Below are positions 353 to 33,272 of a stretch of 45,005 nucleotides of DNA, in pieces. Numbering within the stretch: position 1 is the first letter of the stretch; each line of letters begins with the position of its first letter. Under the pieces are notes generated by a model. That model worked only from the letters and a program-made list of their open reading frames with translations. It made no database searches and was not told the DNA's origin. Source of the DNA: an uncultured Clostridia bacterium (GTDB lineage: Bacteria > Bacillota > Clostridia > Christensenellales > UBA1242); contig CANQKH010000014.1 of assembly GCA_947624415.1 (NCBI GenBank), positions 1-45,005 on the forward strand, given 5' to 3'. The position numbers and the translations under genes were made by a program.

Positions 353-536
353 AAAAATACTAGATTTTGTAAAAAAGTGTAAAAAATGCGAAAAAATCGT
401 TATTTTTATGCAAATTTTAGCAAATTTTACAAAATTTTTAGAAAAATAAAATATTAAATATAATTTTTGCTTATTTATTTGGCAACAAAATTTACCTTTA
501 AAAATACATTTTATTTAAAAATGTGGGAGGATTTTA
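353..536. other. AT-rich spacer with weak promoter signals
   Basis: A TATAAT box at 459-464 is a plausible -10 for the next gene, but no good -35 lies 17 bases upstream. A small hairpin (ACATTTT 506-512 with AAAATGT 518-524) abuts the ribosome binding site GGGAGG (525-530) and could affect translation initiation. A short reading frame that crosses the RNA terminator in this area is not considered a gene. Confidence 0.4.
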
Positions 537-1253
537 ATGAAAAACAAACAAAAGCAACAATCAAAATTTGCGGTGTGGTGGCGATGGCCACTGCTTGTTT
601 TGGTTTTGTCCTTTTCTGTTTCACTTTGCTTTGGAATTGTAAGTCAAGTTGCACTTTCAAATGCCGGCATAATTGTTTCTGTAGTTGTCATTTTTATTTT
701 TATATCTATTTCAATTGTAACAGATATGATTGGTGTCGCGGTAACTGCCGCATCCCTTGAACCTTTTCGGGCAATGGCGGCAAGAAAGGTTCGTGGAGCA
801 AAGGAGGCGATAAAACTTGTTCAAAACGCAGAAAAGGTTGCCTCAATTATTGCAGATGTCATGGGTGATGTTTGCGGAATCTTATCTGGTGCGGCGGGAA
901 CAACTATAACAGTCGTTATTATTGTAAATTATCTTGGCACATTTGTTGAAATAATTTTGGCGTCCTTGGTTTCTGCTTGCATTGCATCTTTAACAATTTT
1001 TGGAAAGGCATTCTTTAAAAAATACGCATTAAAACACAGCGAACAAATTATACTTATACTAGGCAAATTTTTGAGTTTGTTCCATTCGCAAAAGACAAAG
1101 CAAAGGAAAGATAAAAAGAAAATTGAAGAAAAAAGGCTTAAAAATGAAGAAAAAACGTTAAAAAATGATGAAAAAGCACTAAAAAAGGGTAAAGTTGAGA
1201 CTTTGAAGAAGATTGAAGGGCAGACGCAAGAGGGTGAACACAACAAAAATTAG
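537..1253 (+). CDS. Small membrane protein resembling the CorB/DUF21 transmembrane module
   Basis: The 238-residue product has three or four hydrophobic segments (about 17-40, 42-65, 110-135 and 138-155). The conserved-looking central part reads TDMIGVAVTAAS, then MAARKVRGAKEA, then VASIIADVMGDVCGILSGAAG. I associate this pattern with Clostridia proteins annotated as CorB-like, that is, the DUF21/CNNM membrane module of Mg/Co transporters without the CBS domains. That link is from memory and is moderate. No CBS or CorC domain is present, so transport cannot be assumed. Residues from about 180 on form a very basic, Lys/Glu-rich predicted coiled coil with a repeated KNEEKTLKNDEKALKK-type unit, probably cytoplasmic. 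The start is supported by GGGAGG six bases upstream. A strong terminator follows, so the gene is monocistronic. Confidence 0.75.
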   Translation: MKNKQKQQSKFAVWWRWPLLVLVLSFSVSLCFGIVSQVALSNAGIIVSVVVIFIFISISIVTDMIGVAVTAASLEPFRAMAARKVRGAKEAIKLVQNAEKVASIIADVMGDVCGILSGAAGTTITVVIIVNYLGTFVEIILASLVSACIASLTIFGKAFFKKYALKHSEQIILILGKFLSLFHSQKTKQRKDKKKIEEKRLKNEEKTLKNDEKALKKGKVETLKKIEGQTQEGEHNKN

Positions 1254-1256
1254 TTA

Positions 1257-1301
1257 AAATATGTTGGAATTTTTAGGGAAAAAACCAACATATTTTTTTT
1301 T
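1257..1301 (+). terminator. Intrinsic terminator
   Basis: AAATATGTTGG (1257-1267) pairs with CCAACATATTT (1285-1295), followed by a T run. It closes the preceding membrane protein gene. Confidence 0.85.
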
Positions 1302-1350
1302 AAATTTAACTTTGACTTTTCACTATCAATTAAATTTTTTTGATTTGATA

Positions 1351-1379
1351 TTGCTTTTTTTGTTTTTGTATGTTATAAT
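1351..1379 (+). promoter_or_regulatory. Promoter of the ankyrin-type gene
   Basis: TTGCTT (1351-1356), a 17-bp spacer and a perfect TATAAT (1374-1379) preceded by TG one base upstream (extended -10). Transcription would begin near 1386, just before the GGAGG box. Confidence 0.7.
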
Positions 1380-1400
1380 ACTTAAAAATGGAGGTTTTTT

Positions 1401-4023: not shown

Positions 4024-7000
4024 ATGAGAAATAAAGAAATGTCGATATGGAGAAGAATTGCACTTTTAATTTGCATTTTGCTTTCATTTGGAATGATGTT
4101 TGCGGGCATTACAACAATTTTGCCTAAAGAACAAATGAATGCAGTGGGAGAGTTTACAATTCCCGACCTGCCAAGCGGGACGAGGTATAACTCTGTTTCT
4201 GCAACGTTTGACTCAAACTATCACATATATACAAACACGACGATTGAAACGTTGAAGAACAAACTCCGCGTAAGAGGAACGTATTATGATGAAGGTGCAC
4301 AGGCGAATGTTTCTGAGACAATTGCCTCCCCATATTATGCCGTAAAGGTATACAAAAAAGGTGATGGCTCGGTTATGGAGGAAGTAACCGAGAACGAAGT
4401 TTTGTTTGAAATGGATGGCACCTATATCTTTGAAGTCCACGTGAAGGATGTTGCACCATACGTAGTTCCCGGCGAATATAAACCTAGTGAGGCAAAGGAT
4501 TATAACAGCATTTCCTTCTCTTTTGCCGCACATAGGTCTATTTTTGTTGACATTACTTTAGAAGAATTTAAAACATATCTTGTAGTTATGGGCTTTCCTG
4601 CAGACGGAGGTCCTGAAGAGCGAATTTATGACACAGAACTTTTTACAGTTACAGTAAATGGTGTTGAAGAAGGGAAGGGAGATATGTCTCTCACAGTTGG
4701 CGGTAGCAACTCCGCACAGGTTCACTATAACAACACTGACATTGATGACGTAAGCACGGCTGCACAGGGTTTCACTGTAGTTTCTTCCGCACTTACATCA
4801 CTTAAGGTTGAAGTTGACCCTCAAAAGGCAAAGAGAGATGGGGGATACTATAAGAGAACGGGTGATTATTTAACTAAATTATATCCAGACCACTATTCTT
4901 TGAGCGGTAATTATAATGTTCAAAGATATTATGCTTTCACCACAGTTATGGACCAAATAGATTTCTTAAAGACTTTAAAAATTACAGGTATATATAATAG
5001 AACAGAAAAAGTTCTCGATTTTGAGAAACAAGAATCGGGCGACATAAAAACAGGAGACAATGAAATTGTAAGAATTGTAAACTGGAATGAAGACGACGAG
5101 ACTTATGACCCCGGTCTTTTGTTCACATTGCCAGCGAAAACCACTCAAAACATGACTTATGCTGTTGTGGTTACAGGTGTAAATGGTGAAACTGTTTTTG
5201 CACCAATTGTTGTTGACGTTGTTTTAAACGCAATTGGAAGTTATTCGACTGTATACACTCGTCATGAAAACAACTACTACTTTTCACCATATACAGAAAA
5301 CTTGCGTAATGACATTATGGCAAATGGGGATTTGACAATAACGCCAGTTCGTAACGATGCTGCATGGCTAAGCCCAATTTCAAACGAAGGTATTAATGGT
5401 TTTGACACTCCAGGAAACGTTATCTATCCTTATAGTCTTAGAACTTCAAGCAGTGCTGCGGACGAAGATATAACAAACTTTGTAAAATTGTTAGACACTG
5501 ACAGTTCCAAAGTTCTCAACGTTGCCGAGCCTGTAACAAAAGATAAAGTTTCACAATTTTTCTATATACCTGTTAGTATTAGATTTTACTATGACAACAA
5601 TAATCAAACAAGCACTATTAACATTCCTGTAAAACATGAGTTGCCAGATCACTTATATGCTAGTAATGGTGGTTGGTCTTCAAGAAATCTAAGAGGAACT
5701 CAAGTTTTAGGGGAAGATTTTGACCCAACAGGACTAGAGTTACGTTATATTTGGAAAGATGCTGAGGATTACGAGTATGAATATAACTTCAACCTTTTAA
5801 GCAAAAAACTTTTGACAAGAAAATTAAATGTTAGAGAACAAGACATATCTCCAGACCTTGACATTGACAACGATGGAGTAAATGACTGGGTTAATCCTGA
5901 CGATGAAAAGGTTGTTGATAAAATACCACTAGACAAGAGGGAGTCGCTTATAAAATATGCCTTTGAAGACTATTTTGAAGTTAAATATTATAGTTGTGGC
6001 ACAAAAGAGCAGGAAAGTCAGTTTCTTCTTGGAGAATATCCAAAATATAAATTGACACCAGAAGTTCAATCGGTGGAATTTTCTTTCACCTATCCAGGAA
6101 CAGCCCTTAAAGCAACAATTAAACTTGACCTTTCAAAGACAGTGTTTACAAAACAATCTATTGCATTGCCTCAAATGGACACATCCAATGAATCATTGAT
6201 AATTTACGATGTAGAAAGTGGCGAGGGCGGTGTTGTTCGTGAAATGAAAGGCGTTGACCTTTCAAAAATGTATATTGAAATAAATGACGGTGGAGATGTT
6301 TTGCGTTTCCCAGATAAGAGTTGGAATTGGGATGCTCCAAACCCAGGAACTGACAGCGTTGCAGAGATGCAAACGGCTTACGACAAATTGAAAGGAAAAA
6401 TGGTGGGAGACCCTACCAAAAACAACGTTTTGATTAAATATGGAGAGTTTGACTCTTCGATGGGCACTTGCTCAGTTATTATAACCTTTATTCATGGTGT
6501 TAACAATCTTTCAATAGAGGTGCATTTGACGGAGGAAGCGGCTAAATCATATATATTTAAATCGCCAGGCTCTGCTGATACTGGTGTAAGCCGTCCAAGC
6601 GACTCGCAGATAAACTTTACAATTTCAATATCGAGCGCACTTGTTACTGCTGAAATATATTTCCTTACAGAAGACGGACGAGAGGTTAAAGAAGCGATTT
6701 GGGGATATGGCGACGAGCCATGGGAAATTGTAGCATATGCCACAGTTGGCGACTCCAGACGACGTTTGGGCGATGGCGACAATTACACGATAGGCTATTA
6801 TGGTGCATCCCTAAATGGTGAAACTTGGGGAGGTTATGGTTCGCCTCAAGAAATTATGCCAACTAATGCAGGAACATATTCTTTAAAACTCACTATTGCC
6901 GCATCAAGCGACTTCATTGAGGCATCAACTGATGCTATTAATGCGACAAAGTTTACTATAAAACCTCAACTTTTTGAAGTTAGCGTTGGGCCAAGTCCTA

Positions 7001-10000
7001 CATATGATGGCACAACCTATTATAAAGCAGAAGACCAATTGATTTTCACTCCAATAAAATCAGGTGATGATTGGGGCTTTACAGTTCCAGAAGATGTTGC
7101 AGCAAATAATCTACAAATTCTTAAAGGCGGAAGTGGATATACAATAACTCATGCCGATACTGCCCAAGACGGCGGACCTGGATATGACGATGCCAATGAT
7201 GGATATCTGCACGCAGGAACTTATTCAATCACAGTCAATTTGCAAGGAGATTGGAGATATAACTTCCAAATTAAATCTGCTTCAATACTTGGTGCACAAG
7301 GCGCAGGGGAATCCACTTCAATTGAATTTAGTGTGCTTAAATATTTGGACAATACATTGGAAATTGAGGTAGAGGGTTGGAGTTATAAGCAATTTGAAAA
7401 ACTTGCTTCAAATCACGACACCTATGAGCCTGTTGAAACAGATGTTACGACGACAACAAAATCTTCAACTTTCTATGGCAAAGTTAATCAAATAAATTAT
7501 TATGCTGCCAGGGATTGGGATACAGACCAAAATAAGCCACTTGACGGACATGAAAGAACAGCCTGCTATTTTGGAATGATGAATGAATTTCAATCATTTA
7601 ATAATTTACCTGCAGGCACATATTATGCATATGTAACGACAAGTTACGAACATGACGATGACGAAGGCGATTACGACTTGCTTACCGCATGGACCTCTTT
7701 CACAATTGAAAAATCAGTTGTTGACCTGGTTACTGCACCAGAGGGAATTATTTATGACTTCTATAGAGACAGTCAATTTGATTTGGAAAATTGGAACAAG
7801 GTAAATGGTGTAACTTATGGCGTTCTCAATGAAGCTCACAAAAACACTGAAACACTTATGACTATTACCACCTTTAAAGGGGTAAACACAAAGGGTGAGG
7901 ATATTTCTCAACTTAAGTATGTGGAAAATAGCAGTGCATTTTCTGCAAAGGAAGCAGGAACTTATACATTTGTTGTTTACTTGAAAGATACAGCCAACTA
8001 TAAATGGGCAGAAGGTGCAAATTTTGACCAAGACAACGCACATATTACATTTACATTCACAATTGGAAAGGCCACAATCAAACCTTTGTCTCCTGGCGAT
8101 GATGCCACATATAATGAGGAACTTATCCCTTACGTCATTAAGGGACTTGACAGTGTTATAACTTCTGGCGATGACACTCTTGCATCGCGTGGCAACTCTC
8201 TTGTCGATGTTGCAATGACAGGTCTTCGCCATGACAAAAGCACCGCTATAACAAATAATGAATCAACAAACTTCACATTTAATAACAATGGAGAAATTAA
8301 AGCAAAAGAAGCAGGAGTTTACACTATTGTTTTCTCATTGAGGGAAAATGCGGCACTAAATTATCAGTGGGCAAGCGAAGGCTGGGGAAGAAACAGCGAC
8401 GGCTCAGATATATATAATAAAGATAATGGAACAATTACATTTATATTTACTATAAATAAGGCAAAAATACAACCACTTACAAAAGGGGCTGACGTTACAT
8501 ACAACGGCTCACTTCAAGCACTTGTAATAAATGGCTTAGACACTCAAATTGCAAACAAAGATGACAATATATCAAGTCATAACGGACTTGTTGACTTTAC
8601 AATGACTGGTCTTCGCCATGACGGACACACAGTTATTGCTGACAGCGCAGACAATTTCACTCATGCCACTTTGGCTAGTATTTCAGCAAAAGAGGCTGGC
8701 GTTTATACATTAAAACTCAATATTTCTCAAAAAGAAGATGTCAATTATCAATGGGCAGAACAAGGAGAATGGATGAGTGATGGTGTGGTTTACAGCACCG
8801 ATGCAAGCGGAAAAGTTACAATAACAATAACCTTCACAGTGGGAAAGGCTTCAATACAGCCACTCACTAAGGGTGAGGATGTAACTTACAACGGAAGTTT
8901 GCAAACTTATACCATTGGAAACCTTGGCCAAACAATGGCAAATCCTAGAGATACAGTAGAAGGATTGGTTGACTTTACAATGACCGGTCTTCGCCATGAC
9001 GGAGATACAGAAATAGACACCCTTGGCGGAAACAATTTCAGTTTTGACTCTTTGGATAGTATAAAAGCAAGAGAGGCAGGCGTTTATACAATAAAACTTA
9101 ATATTAAAGCGGAAAACAAAGTCAACTATCAGTGGGCAACGGCCGGTTGGGATACAAACAATAATGGCTCACAAATATACAATGCTGATGACGACTCTGT
9201 AACCTTTATATTCACAGTAAACAAGGCACAAAAGACCCTCCCAGTAAGCAGTTTGGCTGCCAAAAACTGGAAAGACATTGTTGAGGGAGAAAGGTTTGAA
9301 ATAGATAATTTTGACAATGTAATTGTTAAGTTTAAAGACTTGAAAGGCACAACTTTCACCACAAAAGGCAATAAAGGTGAAACAGAAATAACTTACAATG
9401 AAAAAGGTACAGACTCAACCTACATTGTTACAAGCACTGATGACGGAAAATTATATATTACACCTAATGTAGCGGCAAACTATCAAATAACACTTTATCT
9501 TACCGACACACTAAACTATGAGTGGACTGACACCTCAACAGAGGATAAGACCATTACATTTGTGTTGAACAGAGAGGTCTTAACCTTCTCTTGGGAGCCA
9601 GAAGGAATGAGTTATACCTTTGACGGCTCTGAACATCAACCACAACCAACAGCAACAAATGCATCAATTGCCACAAAAGGTGCTAGACTTACACTTTCTG
9701 CACTTTCTTATAATGAAGAAGACGCTGAGGGCGACCCAGTTTCTGCAATAAATGAAGGGACATATTATGTCAAGATTTATGCATATTCAAGCATAACCCC
9801 AATTGGCACTCTTACCTATGCCGATAACTATATGCTCCCAGAGCAAGTTGTGTTTGAATTTACAATAACCTCTTCTGAACTTGAAAAACCAATTGTTGAT
9901 AGAAGAAAGCCTACGGAAACATCAGTTTCAACTATATATGATGGTTCGGATAAATATTTCTCAAATTACATTATAGATTATAGCGTAAAATATCTTATTG

Positions 10001-13000
10001 ACAACGACCATGAAAAGAATAAGATTGTAATTAAAGTTGACGAATTGGAAGGACATGACCCAGAAATTAGAAGAGTAAAACGTGAAGGCCCAGGTTTTTA
10101 TTATACGAGTAAGGTTTTGAGTTATAAAGTTTCAATCACTCCAAATGACAACTACACTTGGAAAGGTGGCGGAAAAGAAGCGGTAGAATTTACATTTACA
10201 ATAGAGCCACTGGAAGTTGAACTTTGGTGGAACGAGTTAGATTGGATATATGGTGATATGCCAAAAAATCCAACTGCAGAGATACTCAACAAGGCACCAA
10301 GCGATGACGTTTACACTTATGTAACTTATCTCGAACCTTTTCCTTCTGGTTACCCTATTGAGGCTGGACGATATCAGGTCGAAATAAATGATCTTAGAGG
10401 TCAAGATGCAGGAAACTACACGATTTCCAACTCCAACAAATTCAACTACGTTACAATCAGCCAGCAAGGAGTTAATAAACCAACAATAGATTATATGGGA
10501 AGCCCTCTAGTTTATAATTCATATGAACAAAATGTAACTATAGATATGTGGCAGACGGGCATTATGAGTGCTGAGGTTACTGGTGTAAATCCTTGGATTG
10601 AAAGCAGGCCACCTGTTTATGATGCATATGTTGATGAATACGGCAAGTTTTATGCAAAATACGCAGGCGAATACACAATAACAGTCAAACTTACAGATGG
10701 AATGAATTATTATTGGATATATGGTGATGATTCAAATGTTATTCTTAAAATCACAATCGAGCGTGCAACTATTTACGCTCCTGTACTTGGAGAGGCAAGG
10801 GCTCATGATTATGATGAAAACGTTTATTCTCCTGCAAGTGCAATAAAAGAATTTTCACCAGCACTTATTGGCAAAAATTATGAGGTAACTTATGGCTCAT
10901 ATAAAGATGGAGCATATATTGATGAAAATGCAGTTGCTTCATCTAAAGAAATTGGCGAATATTTCATGCGATTAAAAATCACGGCTGAAGATATGCTCAA
11001 CTACGTTTGGGCACTAAACATGGATGATCAGGATTCGGCAGGTTATGTTTCGCTTATTGGAAATACTGTCTATGATGAGGACAATGTTTCCGTTTATTTG
11101 CACTATGCAATAACCAAAACACGTATTACAATAAAATATGCTATTACAGGATACACTTATGGCGACAACGGAATTCTCAATAAAATTACAGATGATAATA
11201 AACCTCATATTATAGATGACGTTGACGGAAATTTAGCAAAAATTGTTGGAAGTGCAGAAAAAGTTACAATTTCATATTATAGGGTAAGTTCAAAAGATGA
11301 CCCAAGCGTAGGCACTTTGGTTGGTGCTGATGAACTTGAAAAAGAATTGCCTTGGGAAGCAGGCTTCTACAAAGTCCATATAGACATCGTCTTTGGCGAA
11401 GGTGCTGGCTATGAAGACATTAAGGTTAGACTTGAAACGGCAGACACAATGCTTATTGTTTCTCCACGCGTTATTGAACTTTCTTGGTCGGGAGACAGTG
11501 AGGCGACTTATGACGGAACAGAATATGGCGATTCTACAAATGAGCCAAGTGTAGTAGTTACAAATGCAGTAACTCGCACAGCAGTTCAAGACAGCATTTC
11601 CCTTTTAATTACAATTCAAGGGCAAGATGGAAGACCAATAAATGTAAATCGTTCAAGCGACCGCTCAGTTATCGCTTGGACCTTGCAGGCTTCTTCAATT
11701 GAAGGGGATGCAGCCTCAAATTACACACTTGATGGCACAACAGGAAACGAATATACATTTACAATCAAACCTGCAACAATAAAAGTCAAAGCAAAGGGTG
11801 GCTCGCTTACTTATGGCGATGAATTTGACACCGCAAGAGGCTTTGTTGACGGCTCAACAGCATATGACCTTGTTGAAGGATTTGTAAACAGCGAAAATTT
11901 TGAGACAGCAAAAATTAAAGTAGAAAATACAAAATATATTCTTGACAAACTTATTGACGGAGAATACAAACCTTATGCCGTTGGTGCCGCGTATGGCTCA
12001 GTTGGAGAATATCGCATCCATTTGGCACTCAGCGAAGGGCAGGTGCTTGGCTTTACCGCTCAAAACTACAATTTTGTTGAGGTGGATGAGGGAGAATATA
12101 ACCATGTTACCGTTTCACATAGAAAAATAGACGTCTTTGTTAATGCAAACAAGACATCGAGTGATTATGGCGACCCTCTACACACTCTATCAGGCGAATT
12201 TTTAAATGAATTGTTAAGCATTTATGGTGGCAGTGCAACAAGCCTTGTTGCAGGAGACACATTTGACTCTGTTTTCTCAGGTCAACTTAAAACCACAGCC
12301 AAAGCATCTTACAATAAAGATGACAATGACGAAAGCACTACAAATGGATTCTCTCATGCAGGAAATTATGCAATTTGCCTTTTAAACGGCACAGGAAATG
12401 GAACTGTTGGAAACTATAATGTTACACTTTACAATTATGAACAAGCATATGTAGTAAATTTAAAAATGATTGAAATTGTTTGGAATACTGAACGTCAGTT
12501 TGTTTATGACGGAACAGATTTCACCCAATCAGCCAACACAGATGACAACCCAATTGCATATTTCATAGACCCTTCAAAGGATGGTGCAGATGAAAATCAA
12601 AAGGTTGCACTTTCTGTATTTGCTGTTGAAAACAAAGGAAGCATACGTCCTGTAGATTTTAAATATTACAAATCAACCAACTACATTCTTTATATTAATG
12701 GTTTTGTTGAATCTGGTTTAATGGCAGGCAAATATGGTTTGCCAGAAGACCCTGACATCCGTTATTATGAAGGATTTAAGATTGAAAAGAGAAAGGTTGA
12801 AATAAAGGGAATTGACGTTAACGGACATATATTTGGCGAAGACGTTAAAGAAACTGAAAAGAAATGGGATTATTCAGGAGAGAGCAAGACAAATGCTAGC
12901 AATCAATTCCATAAGGATGATTTATATTACATAAACAGCCACATTACAGTCTATGCTTACACGACAGCAGAAGGACCAGATTTAATTACAAGAGAAACTC

Positions 13001-16000
13001 CTGTTGGAAACTACTATGTTGTTATAAGTCTAGATGGTGGAAATGAGGACAGCGGAGAAATCGACCGTTTGAGCAATTATGACATTACTCGATCAACAGG
13101 AAATTTTGAAATTGTTCAACGTAAAATTGTAATCACTGTCAACGAAGAATATGCAAAATCGGCTTATGGCGAAAACATAAAATCATTTGCTGCCGGCAGT
13201 GGACTTTACACAGTTCAATTAGCAGGAGATTCTGGCGCGACTGGAAATGCTATTGCAAATGGCGTTGCAGACGACACAGTATTCACTTTATTTGCAAACA
13301 ATTTGGGCAAAAGCATTGACAGCACAACACCTGTTGGACAATATACAATAGAATTAAGTCAGGTTAATGATAATTATGAAATAACATTTACTTTATATCA
13401 TTATACAATAACCCCAGCAACAATTACAGATGTTTCAATTGAGGGTTATAATGACACTTATGATGCACAACCACACAATGTGTTTGAAGAATATTTTTCT
13501 GCAAGCACAAAGAATGAACAAGAATTGAAATGGTATTATGTAAAAGTTGAAAACGACAATGGTCTTGACGCCGATGGCATAAAAACGGCAGGCTGGCAAT
13601 TGTTTACAGCAGTTAATATGCCAAAACAAACAAATGTTGGAAACTATTATTATGCAATCAAGGTTTCTGCCGACAACCACTATGATTATTATTTAGGGTT
13701 CACAGGCTCTGGCAGTGCAAATACTTCTGCCGATGAAACCTATTCAAAAAATAGAGAAAAACCATATGTTGTAACAGCAACAATTTCTAAGGCAATAGTT
13801 GAGGTAACTCTTAATCTTGAAATATTCTACGGCGAAGAAAACCCTGCAAATTACAATGGTATTGGCGGACAATGGAAGGGCACTTTGGAAGATTTGATTT
13901 CAGCCGGTGGCAAATACTCTATATCTGGCATTAAAGCCGAGGATATGGACGCCTTCCGCTCTGGAACACTTGCCGGATGGGATGATGGCGACAATTTCAC
14001 ATATTCTATAAATTACACAAAAGGTGATGATGTCGGTGAGGACTACAAAATCACATTGGATTTAAGCGGTATTGAAACTGACAACTATACCTTTGTTGAT
14101 TCAGGCTCTGGTAAGTTGAAAGTCAAGAAACTTCAAATTACAGTTACATTAAACAACCTTTCAAGTCCTTACAACTTTAATGCAAAAGATGAAGACAAAC
14201 ATGATTTACAAAGCAGTGCAGCATTCTCCCTTGTTGTAACATCAACTGGAACTTATAATGGAAGCCAGATTGAAGTTTATGACCGCGAAGGCGTTGATGC
14301 ATACACTTATACAAAAATCTTTACCATTGCCTCACTTGCTCAACAACTTGATAAGGATGTTAAGACTGCCGTTGTTGGCGCTTATGCAATCTATGCAACT
14401 GCAGGCGAAAAATATAACAACTATGACATTACTTGGGCTGGAAACTGGGGCAAAACAGACCAGACTACAGGCCAAGAAATTAAAACAAAAGATGGAGATA
14501 CAAATATTACAGGCACAGTAGCCGGAATTTATACAATTACAAATGCCACAATAACACTTAATTCAACAATTTCAGCATATGGCTCAGCATATGAAGAAGG
14601 AATTTTATATGATGAGGCTGAACACTATGCTTTACAACTTGGCACAGATGAAAATAAGTCTGGGTCAACAGATAACTTTGCAACAACTGTTGATAACTGT
14701 GCAACAACTTGGAAATATCTTGTTTTCAATGCAAATCAAACAGAAGATGCAATAAATGAAGGGGCATGGTCAAGTGCTTTGACATCTATGCCAAAATTTA
14801 TTGACGTTGGCTCATATTACGTTTATTATCGCGTAGAGGCGGCAAACCACTCACCAGTAAGCGGTTTGAGATATCACGTTGTTGTTAAAATTGCAAAAAC
14901 AGACAATGCTTGGGCTACAGATTTCTCTATGGCTGGGGCTGAGAAATTTAAGGATGCCAGCGAAGGCGTTGAAAGATTCCCAAGTGTCGCTGCTTGGACT
15001 TATGGACTTTACAACAGTGCCAATAACGCAAAAGGATTTGACGCAAATGACAAAAACAGGGCGACAATAGCGGTTGGAAAATTTGACCGCATTCCTGCCG
15101 GAAATGATGGCGAAAACCAACTCTCTGTTACATTATATTATTATAGAAATGGAATTGGAGATGGAAGCCAAGTTGCCTCCACAACATTTAAAAATGGCTC
15201 TGGAGTGCTTACCGAAGTGCTTAAAGCATCTCTTAACGCAGGATATTATCGCATTGTATTCAGTATAGCAGGCAATGCAAACTACAATGAACTTAGTGCC
15301 GAGTTTGGCTTCAAGATTGACAAAAAGGATCTAAAAGTTAAAGCAAATGACTTTACAATAACTTATGGAGACAATGTTCCAAGTTATACATATACGGCAA
15401 CTGGCTTTGTTTCAAATGGCTCTGAAATGGAAAATACAAGCATATTTGTAACTATTCCAACATTTAATTGTGCTTATCTTCCAGGTGCTGAAAATGGCTC
15501 GGTTGGTGAATATGAAATCTCAATCAGCAATCAAGAAGAACTTAAAGCACAGGAAACAGCATTAAATTATGAAATAACATTTGAAAATGGCACAGTTACA
15601 GTTGGCAGACGTGCTTTGACACTAAGAATTGATGACAAGCAAGATGCATTTAATATGAATGGCATGAACAGAGCCCAAATTCCACTTACTGCCACAGTAG
15701 TTGGAGGAACATCAATCTACACTGGCGATTATGACGAGGGCTCACAACAAATTGTTTACACTTTAAAAACCACCGCTTATGATGCAAACGGCGAGTTTAA
15801 GACACAAAATGTTGGTGATTATCCAATTTACGTTGTGTTCAACAATGTTGCCGGCAAAGGCTTCACTTATGAAAAGAATTATATCTTGACAGTTCAAAGC
15901 GGTTCATATAGCGGCGACCTTCCAGACGAGGCTGTTGAAAGTGCTGTTGGAAACAGTGCTGCAACATTCAAAATTATTCCTGCAACTCTTGAAATTTTGG

Positions 16001-19000: not shown

Positions 19001-22000
19001 TAAAGGGGACAGGGTATGATGCTTCAACAATGCGTATTTACTCTGTTCACAACTTCACAATTGATGAAGATGACGTTATTTCAAGCCGCGAAACAAACGC
19101 CGGAACATACACTGTAACAATAACATTAATTGATAAGGCAAACTATATTTGGACGGATGAAGTTGAAAATGACGAGGCATCAGATGTTGTTTTGACATGG
19201 GTAATTAGCCCTGCAACAGATAACACTGTTACTATGGGAGAGGAGTCATACACAACAACTTATGGAACGCCAGTTACTCCAACTGCATCTTCAAAATATA
19301 ATGGCGAAATAAAATTCTATTACCTTGCGGCAGAAAGTTTGCCAGATGCCGGAGCGGAAGGTTGGGATGAAATTCAACCAACTCAGGTGGCAAAAGATGG
19401 AACTCACTATTACATAAAAGCAGTAAGCGAAAGCACAGATAACTATAACGAGGCAACAAAAATTGTTGAACTTGTAATAAATCGTGCCCAACTTCACGTT
19501 ACACCAGTTGGCACAAACTTGACTTATGGCGACACATTTGATGGCTCGGCTTGCAGTTATACTGTTGACCTAGCAGACCTCAAATATTCTGACCTGCAAA
19601 CTGTTGTTTCTGGCAAGGGAGAATATCTTCTTAAGAAAGGGGATATTGCATATTCAGTTGGAAGGGCAAATGGCTCTGTTGGAACTTATACATTGTCATT
19701 TGATGTAAATGAAGATGGCTCAGTCAAAGGCTTAACGGCAGACAACTATATGATTGTGGGCTACACTTCAACAATTGAAGTTGTTGCAAAACAAATCTCA
19801 GTTAAACTGCCAAACAGAAGCAGCACATATTCTCAACCATTAAATCTTGACAATATTGATGATGACATAATCATTTTGAATGAAGAACCTCTTGTTGCAG
19901 GAGACACAAAGAAAGGACTTGGAATAAAAGTTTGTGTTTACGCTGGCGATAAGAGCAAGATAGAGGACGGAACTATTGCAGATGCCGGCTCATATCCACT
20001 TGTAGCAGAGCCAGAATGGGCTGACAAAAACTATTCAATAACTTTCTATGACGGAGTTTACACAATAGACCGCAAGACAATTACAATTGAAAGCATAATA
20101 GTTGGAAACAATGTTTATGGAAATGTTACAGAAGCAAAATTCAAGGTTGAAGGTGATGGAAATGAGTATACAAGTGGCTCTGACGTTGATATTGACGGAA
20201 GAAGAAAGGCTGTTATAAACATTATTTACACAGGCACGGCAAATGACCTTTCAACACACAATGACCAGACGCTTCCACAAAAAGCAGGTGTTTACACACT
20301 TTCACTTGTGCTTAGCGAAGATTCTGCAAAGAATTATGTTCTTGCAGGAACTACAATTGAATCATTCAATGTTGACAGGAAAGAACTTTCTTACAGTGAA
20401 ATCACCGCAGGAACACTTAAATATACTGGCAATGAAAAGAGTTTGTCGGCAGATGATGTGGCAGATAAAATTGTCATAACAATTGCAGACGACAATGAGG
20501 CAAAAGATAAATTTACAGCATCGGCTAACTCAGACTGGGTAAATGCCGGAACATATTATATATCTTTGACTCTTAAAGATGAATATTATAACAATTACAG
20601 ATGGGCTGGACAAGAGAAGGTTGCAGGAATTCCATTTGTAATTGAAAAGGCTGACAATAATACTGTAACAATAGAAGATATTACTGGCTGGGTTTACGAT
20701 GGCACATATCATGAAGAGGCAATAAGTGCAAGCGCAACATTTGGAAGCGTAACATACTTATTCTCTCAAAGCACCGGTGATGATGCATCATGGACACCTG
20801 ACCGACCAGTAAATGCTGGCACATGGTATGTCAAAGCACAAGTTGAAGACAATACAAACTTCAATGGTGCAGAAATGATTTCTTCAGCATTTACAATCTC
20901 GGCACGCAAGGTTAAAGTTGAAATTAATTCACCTTCGGGCAATGTATATGGCTTCTCAATTGCCCCTGCAACAGGCGTTTTGAAAGATAATGAAAGCGTT
21001 AAACTTGAAGATGGACAATTCTCGGCATTAGTGGCAGGAGTTGTTATAACCTTCAAATATAATGGCGTGGCAAATGATGGAACATCTTACAGCGACAGCA
21101 AAGAGGCTCCAACTCATGCAGGAACATTCACAGTAACGGCATCAATTAAAGATGGAAACTTTGAGTTGACAGAGGATGCAACTGAGGACTTTGTTGTTGA
21201 AAGAGCCACAGTTTATGGCTATGACATAACAACAACCCTTGTATATAACGGCAAGAGCCGTTCGGCAGATGAAGCAATTTCTTCAGCCACAGGATATAGG
21301 AGTTTGTATCAACTTGACATTGATGCAGATGTATACAACAGCGACACTCATTCTTCAAACAGCGACCAAATCACTGTTAGAACAGTTGGAAAATATAAAT
21401 TTAGCCTTAAACTTATTGACAAAAACAACTATGCATGGGCAGAAGCACTTACATCTTGGGGAGAAAACAATGAAAGTGCTGAGTTTGAATTATCGATAAC
21501 TCCTGCACTTGAGGATGTTGAAGTTGAAATTGCCTTGGCAGAAGGTGATAATTGGGGTTGGAACTACGGCGATGAAGTTTCAACTGAAAGATATAAAGTT
21601 ACTGTCAAAGTTGGCGGAAATGAAATTCCAACAGAAGATTATTCTTACACAATTGAATTCTTGAGCGATGGCACTTGGAGTGCGACTATTCCAACAAATG
21701 GCGGCAATTATCAAGTGCGTGCATCTATAACAAGTGATGACGTGAAGGCAAATCAATCTTCTGGACAGATTTTTGAGATTGGAAAGTTGAAACTTAAAGT
21801 TGAAGTTACCTCTCCATCAAATAATGTTTATCTTGAAAATCCTCAACCAGCAGAAGTAAAATTCTATAAAGACAGAGTTGAAGAAGAATACTCTCTTGAC
21901 AGGAGTGCTTATTCACTAAATTATTATGGAACTTCAAATGACAGCACCTTTGATCATGACTCTAAAAACAGCACAGTTGAAATGCCAACTGTTGCCGGAA

Positions 22001-25000
22001 ACTATAAAGTTTGGGTAAGCATAACAGACCTATTTAAATCAAACTTTGAACTTATTGAAAGCGATGCAATAACTGCAGAAAGTGCAAAAGATTTTGTAAT
22101 AGCAAAGAAGACATTGCATTCAGGCGACTACAACGCACAAAGCGATACAGTTTACTATAATGCAACAAATCTCATAGGCAAAGTTGACCTTTCAGCATTA
22201 AATCTTTCAGCAAATGGCTTGTTTACAGCAAAACTTGGCGTTGAGACAATGATAGATGCAGGAATTTATCCAATAAAACTTACTCTTACAGATGCAAACA
22301 ACTATTGTTGGTCAAGTCCAGATGAAGGAAATGAGGCAGAAGCAACAATTAACTTTACTGTCTCTATGGCAATAATTAAACTTAATGCTCCTTCAATTAC
22401 TGGTTGGAGATATGGCAGTTATAGTGCTGGCACAAATGCTCCATCAGCAACAGGATACTATAACTTTGGAATTGATGGCTATCAAGCAGAAGTTTCAACT
22501 GACCTATTCCAGTATCAATATTGCTCGCAAAGTGGGGAAGCACCTGACGGAATCTGGGTAACTGGAATTCCAGAAAGGGCTGGCAAGTATTATGTGCGAG
22601 TGCTTCTAAGCGGCACACAAAACTATGCTGAGACCACATCGGCAGAAACATTGTTTGAAATTTTGAAAGAGCAGATAGAAAAACCTGTATTTAAAAATGA
22701 AAGAACAGATTATTCAACTAAATATACTGGAAATAATCAAGAAATTGAAATTAAAAACTTCGTGGGGTCAGCAATGTCATTTGCCACAAGCACTTCTGTT
22801 CGATTTGACGCAGAAATAAGCAAATTAGTGGCAAGCACAGTTGGTTCTCACACAATTACATTCACATTGTTAGACACACATAACTATGAATGGAAGAATG
22901 GAACAAATGAAGAAGTAACACTTACATGGAATTTAGAGATAGCAGATGAAAACACTGTTACATTGACCCTTACACAGACAACTTGGACTTATGGAACAGA
23001 TGCATCAAGTCTTGTTTCTGCTTCATCTCAATTTGGCGAAGTCAAATTCCACTTCAAAGCGGCAGAAGCCCAAGGCTGGACAGATGGCTTGCCAACTGAT
23101 GCAGGCACATACACAGTTGAGGCTTATGTCGAGGCTGACGCAAGCGGCAACTATCCAACAGGAAGTGATTCAAAACAAGTAACAATTGAAAGGGCAGTTC
23201 TTACTGTAACACCAAACAGTGGCTCAATTGTTTATGGCGAGGCACTTCCAACGACAGGATTTGTGGTTGGCGACAAAGCATACACATTTACAGGCTTTGT
23301 AAATGGCGACCAAGAGGAAGTTGTGGAAGTCCGAGAATTCACTTTTGACAGTTCTTATCATATTGGAGCACCAGTCAACACCTATGACCTTAAATTAAAA
23401 GAGGCGTCAGGGGAAGTTGTTGGCTTTACAGCAAAGAACTATAAGATAGTAAGCGGAAGTGGTGAGCTTACAGTTACAGCCAAGAAAATCTCTATTCAAA
23501 TTGGAAATGCAGAGTCGTCATATCACATTGAAGATGTAAGTCTTGAAAATGTTGAATTTACTCTTGCTGACGAGACACAACTTGTTGAAAACGATTCGAT
23601 AGAGGGCTTGGGAATAACTATTAAATCAGAGGCAACAAATGACCACATAGATACAGGCACTTATCCTATTGTTGCAGCCGATTATTCAAACAAAAACTAT
23701 GAAATAACTTTCTATGATGGAATTTATACAATTAAAGCACTTCGCATTCGTGTTGAAATTTCGGCAGGTGGCGGTGTTTATGGTGAGGAGATTGCAGATC
23801 CAACAATAACAAAAGTATTGTTAGAGCAGGCAGACGGTGAGTATCAAGACTTCGATGCTTCACACCTTGGTCATATTCCACTTGTATTCTATTACAGCGG
23901 AACATCAAATGACGGAACATGGTCATATGAAGACACCAATCACACAACTACAAAGCCAACGCTTGCAGGGAATTATACAGTTTCAGCACAGAGTTCAGAC
24001 AGCAAAAACTACATTTTAGTTAGTGCTTCAAACTCTCAGCCATTCATTATTGAAAGGGCTACAATCGACAGCAGCAAAATAACTGCTGCAAGCCAAACTT
24101 ATACAGGCAGCCCACTACAACCAGTTTTGCATGATGCAAACAATTACAAAGGGCTTAACGCAGAAAATGTTTACCATGTTTCATATGACAACAACATGAT
24201 AAATGTTGGAAAATATACTATAAATCTTACTTTACTTGACAATATTGCTTACAACCATAAGTGGAATGGACTTGATGACGCAACCGCAACTGTTGAATTT
24301 GAAATAACAAAAGCAGAGAACTCTCTTACAAGTTCAATCAGCATTGTTGGGTGGACTTATGGAAAATATGATGAGCATATAAATGCACCATCTGCAACCG
24401 TTCAATTTGGAACACCAATATTCATGTATTCAACTTCAAGAGATGAAGGATGGGAGAATGCCGTTCCAATAAATGGAAATGCAGGAGTTTACTACGTGCG
24501 AGTAACCGTTCTTGAAGGGGATAACTGGACACGTTTTGACTCTCAACCAGTTTCATTCACAATCTCTAAGGCAGGAGTGAATGTTCCAACAATTGAAATA
24601 ATAACAGAAGGGGCAAACAAGAATGACACTTACACTGGAGAAGAACTATCGGCAGTAGTTTCTGGAATTGATTCAGCGATTATGACGATAACATATGAAC
24701 AAAACATCAACACCAGTGGCGGAGTTGTTCGCTTGCTTGCAAAAAATGCTGGCAGTTATGTTGCTCGCGTAAAACTTACTGACACAACAAACTACTACTG
24801 GATAGAATCGGCAAAACTTGATAGTGAAGACGATTCTATTGCGCTTGTAGTTTGGAATATTGCCCGTAAGAAGGTTGAAAAACCTAGTGCTGTTTCAACA
24901 AAATTTGTTGCAAATGGTCAGGGACTTGAATATATCCCAGAAGGCTTTGATGCAGACATAATGGACATTGAAAACAACACAACCTCATCACCTGGTCAAT

Positions 25001-25215
25001 ACACAGTAACTGTTTCATTGAAGGATGTCGAAAATTATGAATGGGCAGACGGAACGGACAGCGTTATTGAAATTGAATGGGTTGTTGAAGGCGGAAATCT
25101 CGGGTTCTATATAATTTGTGGCATTATGGCATTCATTGCACTTATATTGCTTGCATTCTTAATAAGATATTGCGTAAAAATCAAAAAGCGTAAAAGAGAA
25201 CAGCGTTTATGGTAA
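4024..25215 (+). CDS. Giant MBG/YDG-repeat surface protein, 7063 residues
   Basis: One uninterrupted frame of 21,192 bases. Residues about 8-31 are a signal peptide (basic WRR, then a hydrophobic core). Residues about 45-960 hold Ig-like domains of the type that opens with a strand, a TLEELK-like helix and a VxGxYxDG strand, with one Ca-binding-like loop DIDNDGVND (613-621). From about 980 to 7020 the chain is an array of beta domains of roughly 75-130 residues with the hallmarks of the MBG and YDG families: TYDG or YTG near the start (e.g. 992), YGD in the second type (e.g. 2596, 2713, 3779, 5166, 6402), GFV turns, and closing AGTYTVTV...LTD..NYxW strands. Residues 7028-7047 are a membrane helix and the last 16 are a basic tail; there is no LPXTG. 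It should be anchored in the membrane and span the wall, probably as an adhesin or long stalk; the ligand is unknown. GGAGGTG precedes the start. It is cotranscribed with the next gene. Confidence 0.95.
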   Translation: MRNKEMSIWRRIALLICILLSFGMMFAGITTILPKEQMNAVGEFTIPDLPSGTRYNSVSATFDSNYHIYTNTTIETLKNKLRVRGTYYDEGAQANVSETIASPYYAVKVYKKGDGSVMEEVTENEVLFEMDGTYIFEVHVKDVAPYVVPGEYKPSEAKDYNSISFSFAAHRSIFVDITLEEFKTYLVVMGFPADGGPEERIYDTELFTVTVNGVEEGKGDMSLTVGGSNSAQVHYNNTDIDDVSTAAQGFTVVSSALTSLKVEVDPQKAKRDGGYYKRTGDYLTKLYPDHYSLSGNYNVQRYYAFTTVMDQIDFLKTLKITGIYNRTEKVLDFEKQESGDIKTGDNEIVRIVNWNEDDETYDPGLLFTLPAKTTQNMTYAVVVTGVNGETVFAPIVVDVVLNAIGSYSTVYTRHENNYYFSPYTENLRNDIMANGDLTITPVRNDAAWLSPISNEGINGFDTPGNVIYPYSLRTSSSAADEDITNFVKLLDTDSSKVLNVAEPVTKDKVSQFFYIPVSIRFYYDNNNQTSTINIPVKHELPDHLYASNGGWSSRNLRGTQVLGEDFDPTGLELRYIWKDAEDYEYEYNFNLLSKKLLTRKLNVREQDISPDLDIDNDGVNDWVNPDDEKVVDKIPLDKRESLIKYAFEDYFEVKYYSCGTKEQESQFLLGEYPKYKLTPEVQSVEFSFTYPGTALKATIKLDLSKTVFTKQSIALPQMDTSNESLIIYDVESGEGGVVREMKGVDLSKMYIEINDGGDVLRFPDKSWNWDAPNPGTDSVAEMQTAYDKLKGKMVGDPTKNNVLIKYGEFDSSMGTCSVIITFIHGVNNLSIEVHLTEEAAKSYIFKSPGSADTGVSRPSDSQINFTISISSALVTAEIYFLTEDGREVKEAIWGYGDEPWEIVAYATVGDSRRRLGDGDNYTIGYYGASLNGETWGGYGSPQEIMPTNAGTYSLKLTIAASSDFIEASTDAINATKFTIKPQLFEVSVGPSPTYDGTTYYKAEDQLIFTPIKSGDDWGFTVPEDVAANNLQILKGGSGYTITHADTAQDGGPGYDDANDGYLHAGTYSITVNLQGDWRYNFQIKSASILGAQGAGESTSIEFSVLKYLDNTLEIEVEGWSYKQFEKLASNHDTYEPVETDVTTTTKSSTFYGKVNQINYYAARDWDTDQNKPLDGHERTACYFGMMNEFQSFNNLPAGTYYAYVTTSYEHDDDEGDYDLLTAWTSFTIEKSVVDLVTAPEGIIYDFYRDSQFDLENWNKVNGVTYGVLNEAHKNTETLMTITTFKGVNTKGEDISQLKYVENSSAFSAKEAGTYTFVVYLKDTANYKWAEGANFDQDNAHITFTFTIGKATIKPLSPGDDATYNEELIPYVIKGLDSVITSGDDTLASRGNSLVDVAMTGLRHDKSTAITNNESTNFTFNNNGEIKAKEAGVYTIVFSLRENAALNYQWASEGWGRNSDGSDIYNKDNGTITFIFTINKAKIQPLTKGADVTYNGSLQALVINGLDTQIANKDDNISSHNGLVDFTMTGLRHDGHTVIADSADNFTHATLASISAKEAGVYTLKLNISQKEDVNYQWAEQGEWMSDGVVYSTDASGKVTITITFTVGKASIQPLTKGEDVTYNGSLQTYTIGNLGQTMANPRDTVEGLVDFTMTGLRHDGDTEIDTLGGNNFSFDSLDSIKAREAGVYTIKLNIKAENKVNYQWATAGWDTNNNGSQIYNADDDSVTFIFTVNKAQKTLPVSSLAAKNWKDIVEGERFEIDNFDNVIVKFKDLKGTTFTTKGNKGETEITYNEKGTDSTYIVTSTDDGKLYITPNVAANYQITLYLTDTLNYEWTDTSTEDKTITFVLNREVLTFSWEPEGMSYTFDGSEHQPQPTATNASIATKGARLTLSALSYNEEDAEGDPVSAINEGTYYVKIYAYSSITPIGTLTYADNYMLPEQVVFEFTITSSELEKPIVDRRKPTETSVSTIYDGSDKYFSNYIIDYSVKYLIDNDHEKNKIVIKVDELEGHDPEIRRVKREGPGFYYTSKVLSYKVSITPNDNYTWKGGGKEAVEFTFTIEPLEVELWWNELDWIYGDMPKNPTAEILNKAPSDDVYTYVTYLEPFPSGYPIEAGRYQVEINDLRGQDAGNYTISNSNKFNYVTISQQGVNKPTIDYMGSPLVYNSYEQNVTIDMWQTGIMSAEVTGVNPWIESRPPVYDAYVDEYGKFYAKYAGEYTITVKLTDGMNYYWIYGDDSNVILKITIERATIYAPVLGEARAHDYDENVYSPASAIKEFSPALIGKNYEVTYGSYKDGAYIDENAVASSKEIGEYFMRLKITAEDMLNYVWALNMDDQDSAGYVSLIGNTVYDEDNVSVYLHYAITKTRITIKYAITGYTYGDNGILNKITDDNKPHIIDDVDGNLAKIVGSAEKVTISYYRVSSKDDPSVGTLVGADELEKELPWEAGFYKVHIDIVFGEGAGYEDIKVRLETADTMLIVSPRVIELSWSGDSEATYDGTEYGDSTNEPSVVVTNAVTRTAVQDSISLLITIQGQDGRPINVNRSSDRSVIAWTLQASSIEGDAASNYTLDGTTGNEYTFTIKPATIKVKAKGGSLTYGDEFDTARGFVDGSTAYDLVEGFVNSENFETAKIKVENTKYILDKLIDGEYKPYAVGAAYGSVGEYRIHLALSEGQVLGFTAQNYNFVEVDEGEYNHVTVSHRKIDVFVNANKTSSDYGDPLHTLSGEFLNELLSIYGGSATSLVAGDTFDSVFSGQLKTTAKASYNKDDNDESTTNGFSHAGNYAICLLNGTGNGTVGNYNVTLYNYEQAYVVNLKMIEIVWNTERQFVYDGTDFTQSANTDDNPIAYFIDPSKDGADENQKVALSVFAVENKGSIRPVDFKYYKSTNYILYINGFVESGLMAGKYGLPEDPDIRYYEGFKIEKRKVEIKGIDVNGHIFGEDVKETEKKWDYSGESKTNASNQFHKDDLYYINSHITVYAYTTAEGPDLITRETPVGNYYVVISLDGGNEDSGEIDRLSNYDITRSTGNFEIVQRKIVITVNEEYAKSAYGENIKSFAAGSGLYTVQLAGDSGATGNAIANGVADDTVFTLFANNLGKSIDSTTPVGQYTIELSQVNDNYEITFTLYHYTITPATITDVSIEGYNDTYDAQPHNVFEEYFSASTKNEQELKWYYVKVENDNGLDADGIKTAGWQLFTAVNMPKQTNVGNYYYAIKVSADNHYDYYLGFTGSGSANTSADETYSKNREKPYVVTATISKAIVEVTLNLEIFYGEENPANYNGIGGQWKGTLEDLISAGGKYSISGIKAEDMDAFRSGTLAGWDDGDNFTYSINYTKGDDVGEDYKITLDLSGIETDNYTFVDSGSGKLKVKKLQITVTLNNLSSPYNFNAKDEDKHDLQSSAAFSLVVTSTGTYNGSQIEVYDREGVDAYTYTKIFTIASLAQQLDKDVKTAVVGAYAIYATAGEKYNNYDITWAGNWGKTDQTTGQEIKTKDGDTNITGTVAGIYTITNATITLNSTISAYGSAYEEGILYDEAEHYALQLGTDENKSGSTDNFATTVDNCATTWKYLVFNANQTEDAINEGAWSSALTSMPKFIDVGSYYVYYRVEAANHSPVSGLRYHVVVKIAKTDNAWATDFSMAGAEKFKDASEGVERFPSVAAWTYGLYNSANNAKGFDANDKNRATIAVGKFDRIPAGNDGENQLSVTLYYYRNGIGDGSQVASTTFKNGSGVLTEVLKASLNAGYYRIVFSIAGNANYNELSAEFGFKIDKKDLKVKANDFTITYGDNVPSYTYTATGFVSNGSEMENTSIFVTIPTFNCAYLPGAENGSVGEYEISISNQEELKAQETALNYEITFENGTVTVGRRALTLRIDDKQDAFNMNGMNRAQIPLTATVVGGTSIYTGDYDEGSQQIVYTLKTTAYDANGEFKTQNVGDYPIYVVFNNVAGKGFTYEKNYILTVQSGSYSGDLPDEAVESAVGNSAATFKIIPATLEILVEGPYYHDQSSDADVKYGDETAGLIYDGKAKIYKAVMEGHEFTAEYKLQSQAGDIWTQTPFKDAGTYIVRFISSNENYSTEITKIFTITRRVLTVTTSVTNEGGGDELDKQSGYVFSYNGAKFELVPAFGNDVEGEEVSYKVEYTGDSFPKKGESAPTFAGIYTGTITLTSKDGFDCNNYTFVSGEAKIDVSRKITINKSTIAVPTTSQQSLSYTGEDLTFYINNYNDKSDYQGTKILSHTVSVAELDGDDGGTTRLTYKVEKDSSKDDSYKLTARNAGKYTIQISLTDSENYVFAAGQTSITFTISKADIYVRAEDVNIEYGTPLNESSSRFGGFNVTYRTFKDGDQADDEHYFFTSGLAFDTNKTEGSGAYDASTAQSGDRFTITPKGLKAYNYNISYVPGTLTVVPRKITVNVKGFNDDNTYAQSPYSGLNQQGNLDSLLSGNLNSFLEPEAGWNGETADTLDDLKVSLSIANAIHYKEDNYAMTPSEASDNYDITFDGGNHTFAITKVDLHIKIGLFDDDATFETLNTSPTVTYGDTVGDGESSGTRLTIRYSGWQEDDGNEKQIRSAQRVGTAFDYSTSKKTEGTEYRPGESHAGEVYTISVTGITFNDYNIILDENSLTVVSRIITVSTTDREYTEEIEEGAKKYNNGVSGAKHDATITFANTVVGHDADYDLKYSGRANDESTLESSSTAPVKAGQYTILITLKQNGVPGGPYYDYIFDQSSAPENMTETTNQTTTLAFNVNKRKLSASWDHSATTFTEGVELETNSIRDYIKEIMGVQSFTRTYSEMVDGEASSKSDIIGPGTEDNQYSIGTDGLTVKAYGNGTYTIIIYLTTQATKNYEWLGNEESDSITLTFRVTATLTNLTVEILGWTYGQYDDVANAPKTYLAIEGIVTFEYFTLDVTKKTLPEDLHVAMALTGKQWTTLLRSHLTGTSTNAPINAGIYVIHAKYAGDSANAPADAYYLFEVKKATIDKPTIDPDYQKDYFYTGAEQIIKGTGYDASTMRIYSVHNFTIDEDDVISSRETNAGTYTVTITLIDKANYIWTDEVENDEASDVVLTWVISPATDNTVTMGEESYTTTYGTPVTPTASSKYNGEIKFYYLAAESLPDAGAEGWDEIQPTQVAKDGTHYYIKAVSESTDNYNEATKIVELVINRAQLHVTPVGTNLTYGDTFDGSACSYTVDLADLKYSDLQTVVSGKGEYLLKKGDIAYSVGRANGSVGTYTLSFDVNEDGSVKGLTADNYMIVGYTSTIEVVAKQISVKLPNRSSTYSQPLNLDNIDDDIIILNEEPLVAGDTKKGLGIKVCVYAGDKSKIEDGTIADAGSYPLVAEPEWADKNYSITFYDGVYTIDRKTITIESIIVGNNVYGNVTEAKFKVEGDGNEYTSGSDVDIDGRRKAVINIIYTGTANDLSTHNDQTLPQKAGVYTLSLVLSEDSAKNYVLAGTTIESFNVDRKELSYSEITAGTLKYTGNEKSLSADDVADKIVITIADDNEAKDKFTASANSDWVNAGTYYISLTLKDEYYNNYRWAGQEKVAGIPFVIEKADNNTVTIEDITGWVYDGTYHEEAISASATFGSVTYLFSQSTGDDASWTPDRPVNAGTWYVKAQVEDNTNFNGAEMISSAFTISARKVKVEINSPSGNVYGFSIAPATGVLKDNESVKLEDGQFSALVAGVVITFKYNGVANDGTSYSDSKEAPTHAGTFTVTASIKDGNFELTEDATEDFVVERATVYGYDITTTLVYNGKSRSADEAISSATGYRSLYQLDIDADVYNSDTHSSNSDQITVRTVGKYKFSLKLIDKNNYAWAEALTSWGENNESAEFELSITPALEDVEVEIALAEGDNWGWNYGDEVSTERYKVTVKVGGNEIPTEDYSYTIEFLSDGTWSATIPTNGGNYQVRASITSDDVKANQSSGQIFEIGKLKLKVEVTSPSNNVYLENPQPAEVKFYKDRVEEEYSLDRSAYSLNYYGTSNDSTFDHDSKNSTVEMPTVAGNYKVWVSITDLFKSNFELIESDAITAESAKDFVIAKKTLHSGDYNAQSDTVYYNATNLIGKVDLSALNLSANGLFTAKLGVETMIDAGIYPIKLTLTDANNYCWSSPDEGNEAEATINFTVSMAIIKLNAPSITGWRYGSYSAGTNAPSATGYYNFGIDGYQAEVSTDLFQYQYCSQSGEAPDGIWVTGIPERAGKYYVRVLLSGTQNYAETTSAETLFEILKEQIEKPVFKNERTDYSTKYTGNNQEIEIKNFVGSAMSFATSTSVRFDAEISKLVASTVGSHTITFTLLDTHNYEWKNGTNEEVTLTWNLEIADENTVTLTLTQTTWTYGTDASSLVSASSQFGEVKFHFKAAEAQGWTDGLPTDAGTYTVEAYVEADASGNYPTGSDSKQVTIERAVLTVTPNSGSIVYGEALPTTGFVVGDKAYTFTGFVNGDQEEVVEVREFTFDSSYHIGAPVNTYDLKLKEASGEVVGFTAKNYKIVSGSGELTVTAKKISIQIGNAESSYHIEDVSLENVEFTLADETQLVENDSIEGLGITIKSEATNDHIDTGTYPIVAADYSNKNYEITFYDGIYTIKALRIRVEISAGGGVYGEEIADPTITKVLLEQADGEYQDFDASHLGHIPLVFYYSGTSNDGTWSYEDTNHTTTKPTLAGNYTVSAQSSDSKNYILVSASNSQPFIIERATIDSSKITAASQTYTGSPLQPVLHDANNYKGLNAENVYHVSYDNNMINVGKYTINLTLLDNIAYNHKWNGLDDATATVEFEITKAENSLTSSISIVGWTYGKYDEHINAPSATVQFGTPIFMYSTSRDEGWENAVPINGNAGVYYVRVTVLEGDNWTRFDSQPVSFTISKAGVNVPTIEIITEGANKNDTYTGEELSAVVSGIDSAIMTITYEQNINTSGGVVRLLAKNAGSYVARVKLTDTTNYYWIESAKLDSEDDSIALVVWNIARKKVEKPSAVSTKFVANGQGLEYIPEGFDADIMDIENNTTSSPGQYTVTVSLKDVENYEWADGTDSVIEIEWVVEGGNLGFYIICGIMAFIALILLAFLIRYCVKIKKRKREQRLW
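8070..9230 (+). repeat. Three near-identical in-frame domains in the giant gene
   Basis: Three consecutive domain copies share long nucleotide identity. The marker ggtcttcgccatgac occurs at 8221, 8608 and 8986, giving periods of 387 and 378 bases (129 and 126 residues). Each copy reads roughly A-I-x-PL-x-G, TYNGSL, TMTGLRHD, KEAGVYT and NYQWA. The rest of the array is much more diverged, so these copies look recently duplicated or homogenised. Confidence 0.85.
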
Positions 25216-25227
25216 GGGAGGTAAAAT

Positions 25228-33271: not shown

Positions 33272-33272
33272 G

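Follow-up and report, generated by a model that had tools for sequence, protein, structure and literature searches.

Results

The window analysed here is a stretch of 45,005 nucleotides from an uncultured Clostridia bacterium of the order Christensenellales (assembly GCA_947624415.1, contig CANQKH010000014.1, positions 1 to 45,005 of the forward strand). It contains a giant surface protein gene at 4024..25215 on the forward strand, a single open frame of 7,063 codons with an ATG start, which was originally predicted to be a single-gene surface protein. A second gene, conserved in relatives and referred to here as the partner, starts after a gap of 12 bases, and sequence comparison indicates that the true unit is a conserved two-gene pair, found across distantly related bacteria. 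The features of the two genes are as follows.

4057..4113, forward strand: predicted signal sequence of the giant, hydrophobic core, residues 12-30 (Kyte-Doolittle mean 2.44)
7870..9243, forward strand: tandem repeats of ~125 residues, residues ~1283-1740, partly 75% alike in DNA
15331..15600, forward strand: MBG_2 domain (PF18676), Pfam profile, 42.9 bits
16936..17217, forward strand: MBG_2 domain (PF18676), Pfam profile, 30.4 bits
18823..20919, forward strand: duplicated block, copy 1, residues 4934-5632, 31% identity to residues 6180-6854
22561..24585, forward strand: duplicated block, copy 2, residues 6180-6854, matching the same orthologue part as copy 1
23200..23472, forward strand: MBG_2 domain (PF18676), Pfam profile, 39.3 bits
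23467..23730, forward strand: MBG_2 domain (PF18676), Pfam profile, 34.2 bits
25108..25164, forward strand: C-terminal membrane helix of the giant, residues 7029-7047, then a basic tail (mean hydropathy 2.94)
25216..25227, forward strand: 12-base gap GGGAGGTAAAAT, putative ribosome-binding site of the partner (by eye)
25228..27468, forward strand: partner, single-pass membrane protein of 746 residues with acidic linkers, downstream of a giant homologue in 20/20 cassettes
25285..25341, forward strand: partner membrane helix, residues 20-38 (mean hydropathy 3.21)
25864..26421, forward strand: partner domain copy 1, YjbR/YdhG/frataxin-like model (profile, predicted structure)
26902..27456, forward strand: partner domain copy 2, 90% identical to copy 1 (profile)

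The giant's frame is real. At its base composition, ~501 stops would be expected by chance in 7,063 codons and none was seen (log10 P ~ -226), every full 500-codon bin of the other two forward frames contains 19-65 stops, and the guanine-plus-cytosine fractions at codon positions 1, 2 and 3 are 0.47, 0.39 and 0.28; the open frame of ~21 kb described in the original prediction is confirmed. The source genome consists of 42 contigs, is 90.4% complete with 5.2% contamination and is probably a metagenome bin, which could raise the suspicion of an assembly error or a chance-open frame. Against such an artefact stand the absence of stops, the collinearity of the giant's orthologues (see below), the lack of any tandem array within the gene reported by Tandem Repeats Finder, and the agreement of the contig with its genus, since the best same-genus copy of a helicase encoded ~10 kb downstream of the giant shares 76% identity with it. 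We regard an artefact as so improbable that it can be set aside. The helicase match likewise disfavours bin contamination as the source of the giant, and recent repeat expansion or assembly duplication is disfavoured because the two long copies within the gene are 31% identical. Indirect support for intactness comes from nine collinear open-frame orthologues and from purifying selection in relatives.

Conservation of the giant-partner pair

The C-terminal 1,063 residues of the giant, used as a query, identified a frame of 4,304 residues in a genome from a different family of the order (G091), where a shorter partner follows the giant and the two genes slightly overlap. A partner-domain profile seeded with the window and G091 sequences had matches in 181 of the 396 genomes examined from the order. 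Twenty partner loci were picked from the top matches of this profile and inspected for upstream frames of at least 500 residues; a giant homologue lay upstream at 13 loci, giant and partner were fused in one frame at three (G195, G183 and G422, the last cut by a contig end), and no giant was present among such frames at the remaining four. Conversely, searching the 396 genomes with a profile built on the final 280 residues of the giant gave 20 matches that were both strong and long, spread over 17 genomes, and a partner lay downstream on the same strand in all 20 (seven of these were profile seeds reached via partner loci, and 13 were non-seeds). The pairing spans four of the order's family codes, and in the pairs listed the stop of the first gene lies near the start of the second or overlaps it. 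In a second, named collection, made up of Clostridia metagenome-assembled genomes by title (one titled Corallococcus sp.), several of them identical to genomes of the first collection, a giant was found upstream at nine of ten partner loci, the tenth having fewer than 900 upstream bases.

It is possible that the giant is a long repeat adhesin of the ordinary type and that its neighbour is co-transcribed for expression only, without a functional role, considering that partner domains are far more widespread (181 genomes) than strong giant-end matches (17) and that four of the 20 partner loci have no giant upstream. However, the constancy of the pairing over four family codes, the proximity or overlap of the gene ends and the three genomes that carry both proteins in one frame all argue against this explanation, which we consider unlikely.

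Within its own genus, the pair appears to be nearly alone. Among 101 genomes, a query of the N-terminal 900 residues of the giant matched its own genome only, with no match in the same-genus genomes G001-G060; this search was too insensitive, since blastp aligned residues 12-380 with the G091 giant (24% identity, E 5e-8, single subject). C-terminal matches to the giant in the genus were short and weak (seven of G001-G060), and the one partner match, in G011, was also weak.

Domain order and selection in orthologues

The window giant is collinear with nine orthologues, which measure 4,282-4,923 residues; the ordered runs comprise 31-62 sequence windows compared with at most 19 in shuffles, and identity is ~24-32% in the main aligned blocks. 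Little or no order was seen for the single-frame giants G195 and G183 (runs of 17 and 13; shuffles up to 14). The ratio of nonsynonymous to synonymous substitution rates (dN/dS) was 0.13-0.21 in four pairs of relatives and even along the chain. In the close pair G152 and G418 it was 0.21 over 4,883 codons, with dN of 0.17-0.24 and dS of 0.59-1.11 per 500 codons and only 75 gapped columns, and such an even, low ratio with few gaps is unlike freely expanding repeats. The strong selection proposed from the open frame is supported insofar as purifying selection on such frames was measured in relatives.

The window giant carries an extra block of ~1,230 residues. Part of its greater length comes from having two segments, residues 4934-5632 and 6180-6854, that match the same block in most orthologues, and part from the repeats near residues 1283-1740. 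In a tree of 20 cassettes, in which the partner part of row G207 was a poor fragment, the window row stood on an end branch of 1.0 against a median of 0.41, reached 44% identity at best and belonged to no starred set, and family f32 did not form a single clade (approximately unbiased test, p 1e-35). These features are no more than suggestive of a transfer of the pair into its present genus, and paralogy could also account for the f32 result.

Architecture of the giant

The giant's signal and membrane segments were called by a Kyte-Doolittle hydropathy scan rather than by a dedicated signal-peptide predictor. The membrane helix is followed by the tail KIKKRKREQRLW, and on reading the sequence no LPxTG-type motif was found ahead of it. 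The proposed signal peptide and C-terminal membrane anchor with a basic tail and no sortase motif were accordingly borne out.

The prediction of dozens of MBG/YDG domains held in part. Four MBG_2 matches (30.4-42.9 bits) exceed the curated cut-off of 25 bits, so that MBG_2 similarity is present in the array; the single MBG_3 match fell under its curated cut-off, and YDG (PF18657) gave no match in the giant at E 0.001. Self-built profiles of five seed types, used for repeat counts only, gave 20, 29, 27, 11 and 2 matches, many of them overlapping, which span residues 918-7022 and cover 3,049 of the 7,063 residues. From the ~90-residue spacing of the C-terminal part, a total of ~65-75 domains may be estimated, although these were not counted. 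No sequence match to Pfam or PDB was found for residues 31-900 up to E 1, which leaves the postulated Ig-like N-terminal domains unsupported. A model of residues 6180-7063, built with eight relatives, shows beta domains throughout and then a single 39-residue helix (mean predicted local distance difference test score, pLDDT, 77; predicted template modelling score, pTM, 0.32). Its Foldseek matches include nuclear pore chains, Ig-like arrays, S-layer proteins and grappling hook fragments, and since TM-scores were low throughout, these indicate the kind of chain and not kinship. Taken together, the description of the giant as a secreted, membrane-anchored surface protein of MBG-type beta repeats is supported.

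Its length is not exceptional, contrary to what had been proposed, as frames with MBG-like parts in the same order reach 7,648, 9,443 and at least 12,660 residues. The longest of these (G246:C11, 101572-139554, L150-L152) is still open where its contig ends. The source genome itself encodes another giant (G000:C5, 41771-62974), 7,058 residues long, with a signal, a C-terminal helix and a basic tail; in a scan of its residues 1-6000, one YDG and one MBG_2 domain scored above cut-off in residues 3001-6000 and none in 1-3000. It is followed by a frame which we take to be SpoIVA-like.

The partner and its possible roles

Neither Pfam nor NCBIfam gave a match to the partner domain at threshold. The YjbR, YdhG and frataxin Pfam families were absent among the matches of three partner-domain members up to E 10, and the best match to any family was DUF5622 (E 0.0011), in one of the three. 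The partner was modelled at a pLDDT of 91, and the model shows a possible resemblance to YjbR/YdhG/frataxin folds, at borderline scores and 5-12% identity.

No family, including the ribosomal L15-type domain PF00828, matched the window partner at E 0.001. An L15-type domain forms the end of five of nine scanned partner-type relatives (L107, L109, L112, L113 and L096; E 2.7e-12 to 9.1e-11), one of which is itself the last part of a giant frame of 5,220 residues. This terminus, together with the closeness of the giant's stop to the partner's start, raises the possibility that the partner acts in export or assembly, keeping the translating ribosome or the translocon near the membrane during secretion of a chain of 4,000-7,000 residues. 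However, none of the five carriers directly follows a separate giant as its partner, the four scanned partners in that position have no L15-type match, as is the case for the window partner, and an L15-type domain alone does not demonstrate ribosome binding; we find this role improbable.

It is a background rule that the positively charged flank of a membrane helix lies in the cytosol (the positive-inside rule). From hydropathy and charge, the C-termini of both giant and partner would be cytosolic under this rule. In the single-frame giants (G195:C9, G183:C27 and G422:C36, corresponding to L109, L110 and L111) both membrane helices are present and their charge signals conflict; with both helices in one frame, the rule cannot hold for both in these three cases. 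An outside-membrane-inside layout of this kind could serve as a contact sensor, in which pull or binding on the giant would be relayed to the partner's cytosolic domains and then become an intracellular signal, and the conservation of domain positions in relatives, rather than of a free repeat number, would suit such a device. Against this, the partner gave no match at threshold to any kinase, cyclase or DNA-binding family, and we hold sensing to be very improbable.

Sortase distribution

No sortase (PF04203) was matched in the source genome (90.4% complete), and 3 of 14 control genomes were matched. In the order, 124 of 396 genomes have a sortase match and 272 have none. As a C-terminal helix is also usual in the giant's family, membrane-only anchoring is not the unusual feature it was taken for. 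When the lists were compared by eye, the partner (181 genomes) and sortase (124) occurred together in a single genome, G423 (Fisher p 2e-41). Further exceptions to this exclusion are G340, of the same family as G423, with a sortase below the curated cut-off, and the own-genus genomes G004 and G037, outside the 396-genome comparison, which have sortase. For an RpoB tree, 30 genomes were chosen as family representatives by trait and 27 were used (two had no RpoB match and one was too short); a single branch separates all the sortase genomes from the rest, so that one change suffices. The two traits therefore give a single contrast and no test of exclusion, and the pattern, as one event, is consistent with replacement without proving it. 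A broader view would see the pair as the best-defined members of a sortase-independent display system typical of one part of the order, in which a large chain of extracellular beta domains, seated in the membrane, would be coupled to a family of cytosolic adaptors not described in the literature searched; some of these adaptors bear an L15-type domain and may guide co-translational export. This we put forward as speculative and rather unlikely.

Neighbouring genes

Upstream of the giant, 1401-3473 encodes a 690-residue ankyrin-repeat protein without a hydrophobic segment. Further downstream, two adjacent proteins of 508 and 450 residues (31745-34760) have a similar layout by eye and no Pfam match at E 0.001, and three consecutive genes for 223, 223 and 235 residues (40291-42350) appear by eye to be tandem duplicates.

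Discussion

We favour, as the probable explanation, a long membrane-anchored tether and a cytosolic adaptor acting together at the membrane. The analysis itself demonstrates the open frame, the conserved pair, collinearity, purifying selection in relatives and predicted folds. The first gene would encode a type I membrane protein: ~65-75 small beta-sandwich domains (MBG-type, Ig-like) would lie on the outside, and its single C-terminal helix with a short basic tail would keep it in the membrane. The second would encode a single-pass membrane protein with its YjbR/frataxin-like domains in the cytosol. The giant could then attach the cell to a surface, a polymer or another cell, and the partner could serve as its cytosolic adaptor, whether for placing or anchoring it, for quality control or for signalling. 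The lineage would display surface proteins without sortase. Domain number, topology, physical interaction of giant and partner, extended shape and adhesion are all inferred. If each beta domain adds 4 nm to an extended chain, the giant might extend ~0.25-0.3 micrometre.

Giant genes without known orthologues are hardly testable. Here, the giant belongs to a family mostly of 4,000-7,000 residues, in which domain order is conserved, selection can be measured and the neighbouring gene is constant, and this family offers a handle on how sortase-less bacteria hold and control very long surface proteins. The pair also points to an uncharacterised domain family, predicted to be cytosolic, that occurs in 181 of the order's genomes among the 396 examined.

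Our literature search, conducted mostly at the level of titles and abstracts, found no description of the giant-partner pair. Proteins of more than 5,000 residues have already been surveyed, and the main text of that survey makes no mention of MBG (PMC11573180). The giant resembles MBG-domain surface proteins (Pfam PF18676, PF18887) in its four MBG_2 matches above the curated cut-off and differs from them in that most of it lies below the Pfam cut-off, in the collinear order of its orthologues and in its coupled partner. A 1,712-residue MBG_2-rich frame is present in the source genome (G000:C1, 87999-93137, L012), and MBG_2 frames of similar size occur in several genomes of the genus. The copy in the source genome shares with the giant an MBG_2 array and, by eye, hydrophobic N- and C-terminal ends, but is a separate protein of about a quarter of its length. 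Unlike YjbR/DUF419, YdhG/DUF1801 and frataxin/CyaY, the partner domain sits behind a membrane helix and has no Pfam match at threshold. Grappling hook protein A (GhpA) of Aureispira (PDB 9flx, 9flu) is likewise a very long bacterial protein, with fragments numbered to 4421 in those entries, and two of its fragments are in the giant's Foldseek list (E 2e-5, TM-score 0.33-0.35 by target, 11-12% identity). It ranks no higher than many unrelated Ig-like chains, and nothing in these matches points to a common assembly or role.

Giant surface proteins in small genomes are already known, and the nearest case found is that of Giant1-5 of Apilactobacillus kunkeei, surface proteins of 3,000-8,000 residues in a 1.5 Mb genome, with an extended length of 0.2 micrometre estimated for Giant3 (PMC12863079). 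MBG, LPXTG and sortase do not appear in its main text, nor does a coupled cytosolic partner in the text covered (PMC12863079). The window giant shares with these proteins a signal sequence and a long internal repeat region; in contrast to its beta repeats, those of Giant1-3 are alpha-helical, and Giant1-4 begin with a beta-solenoid (PMC12863079).
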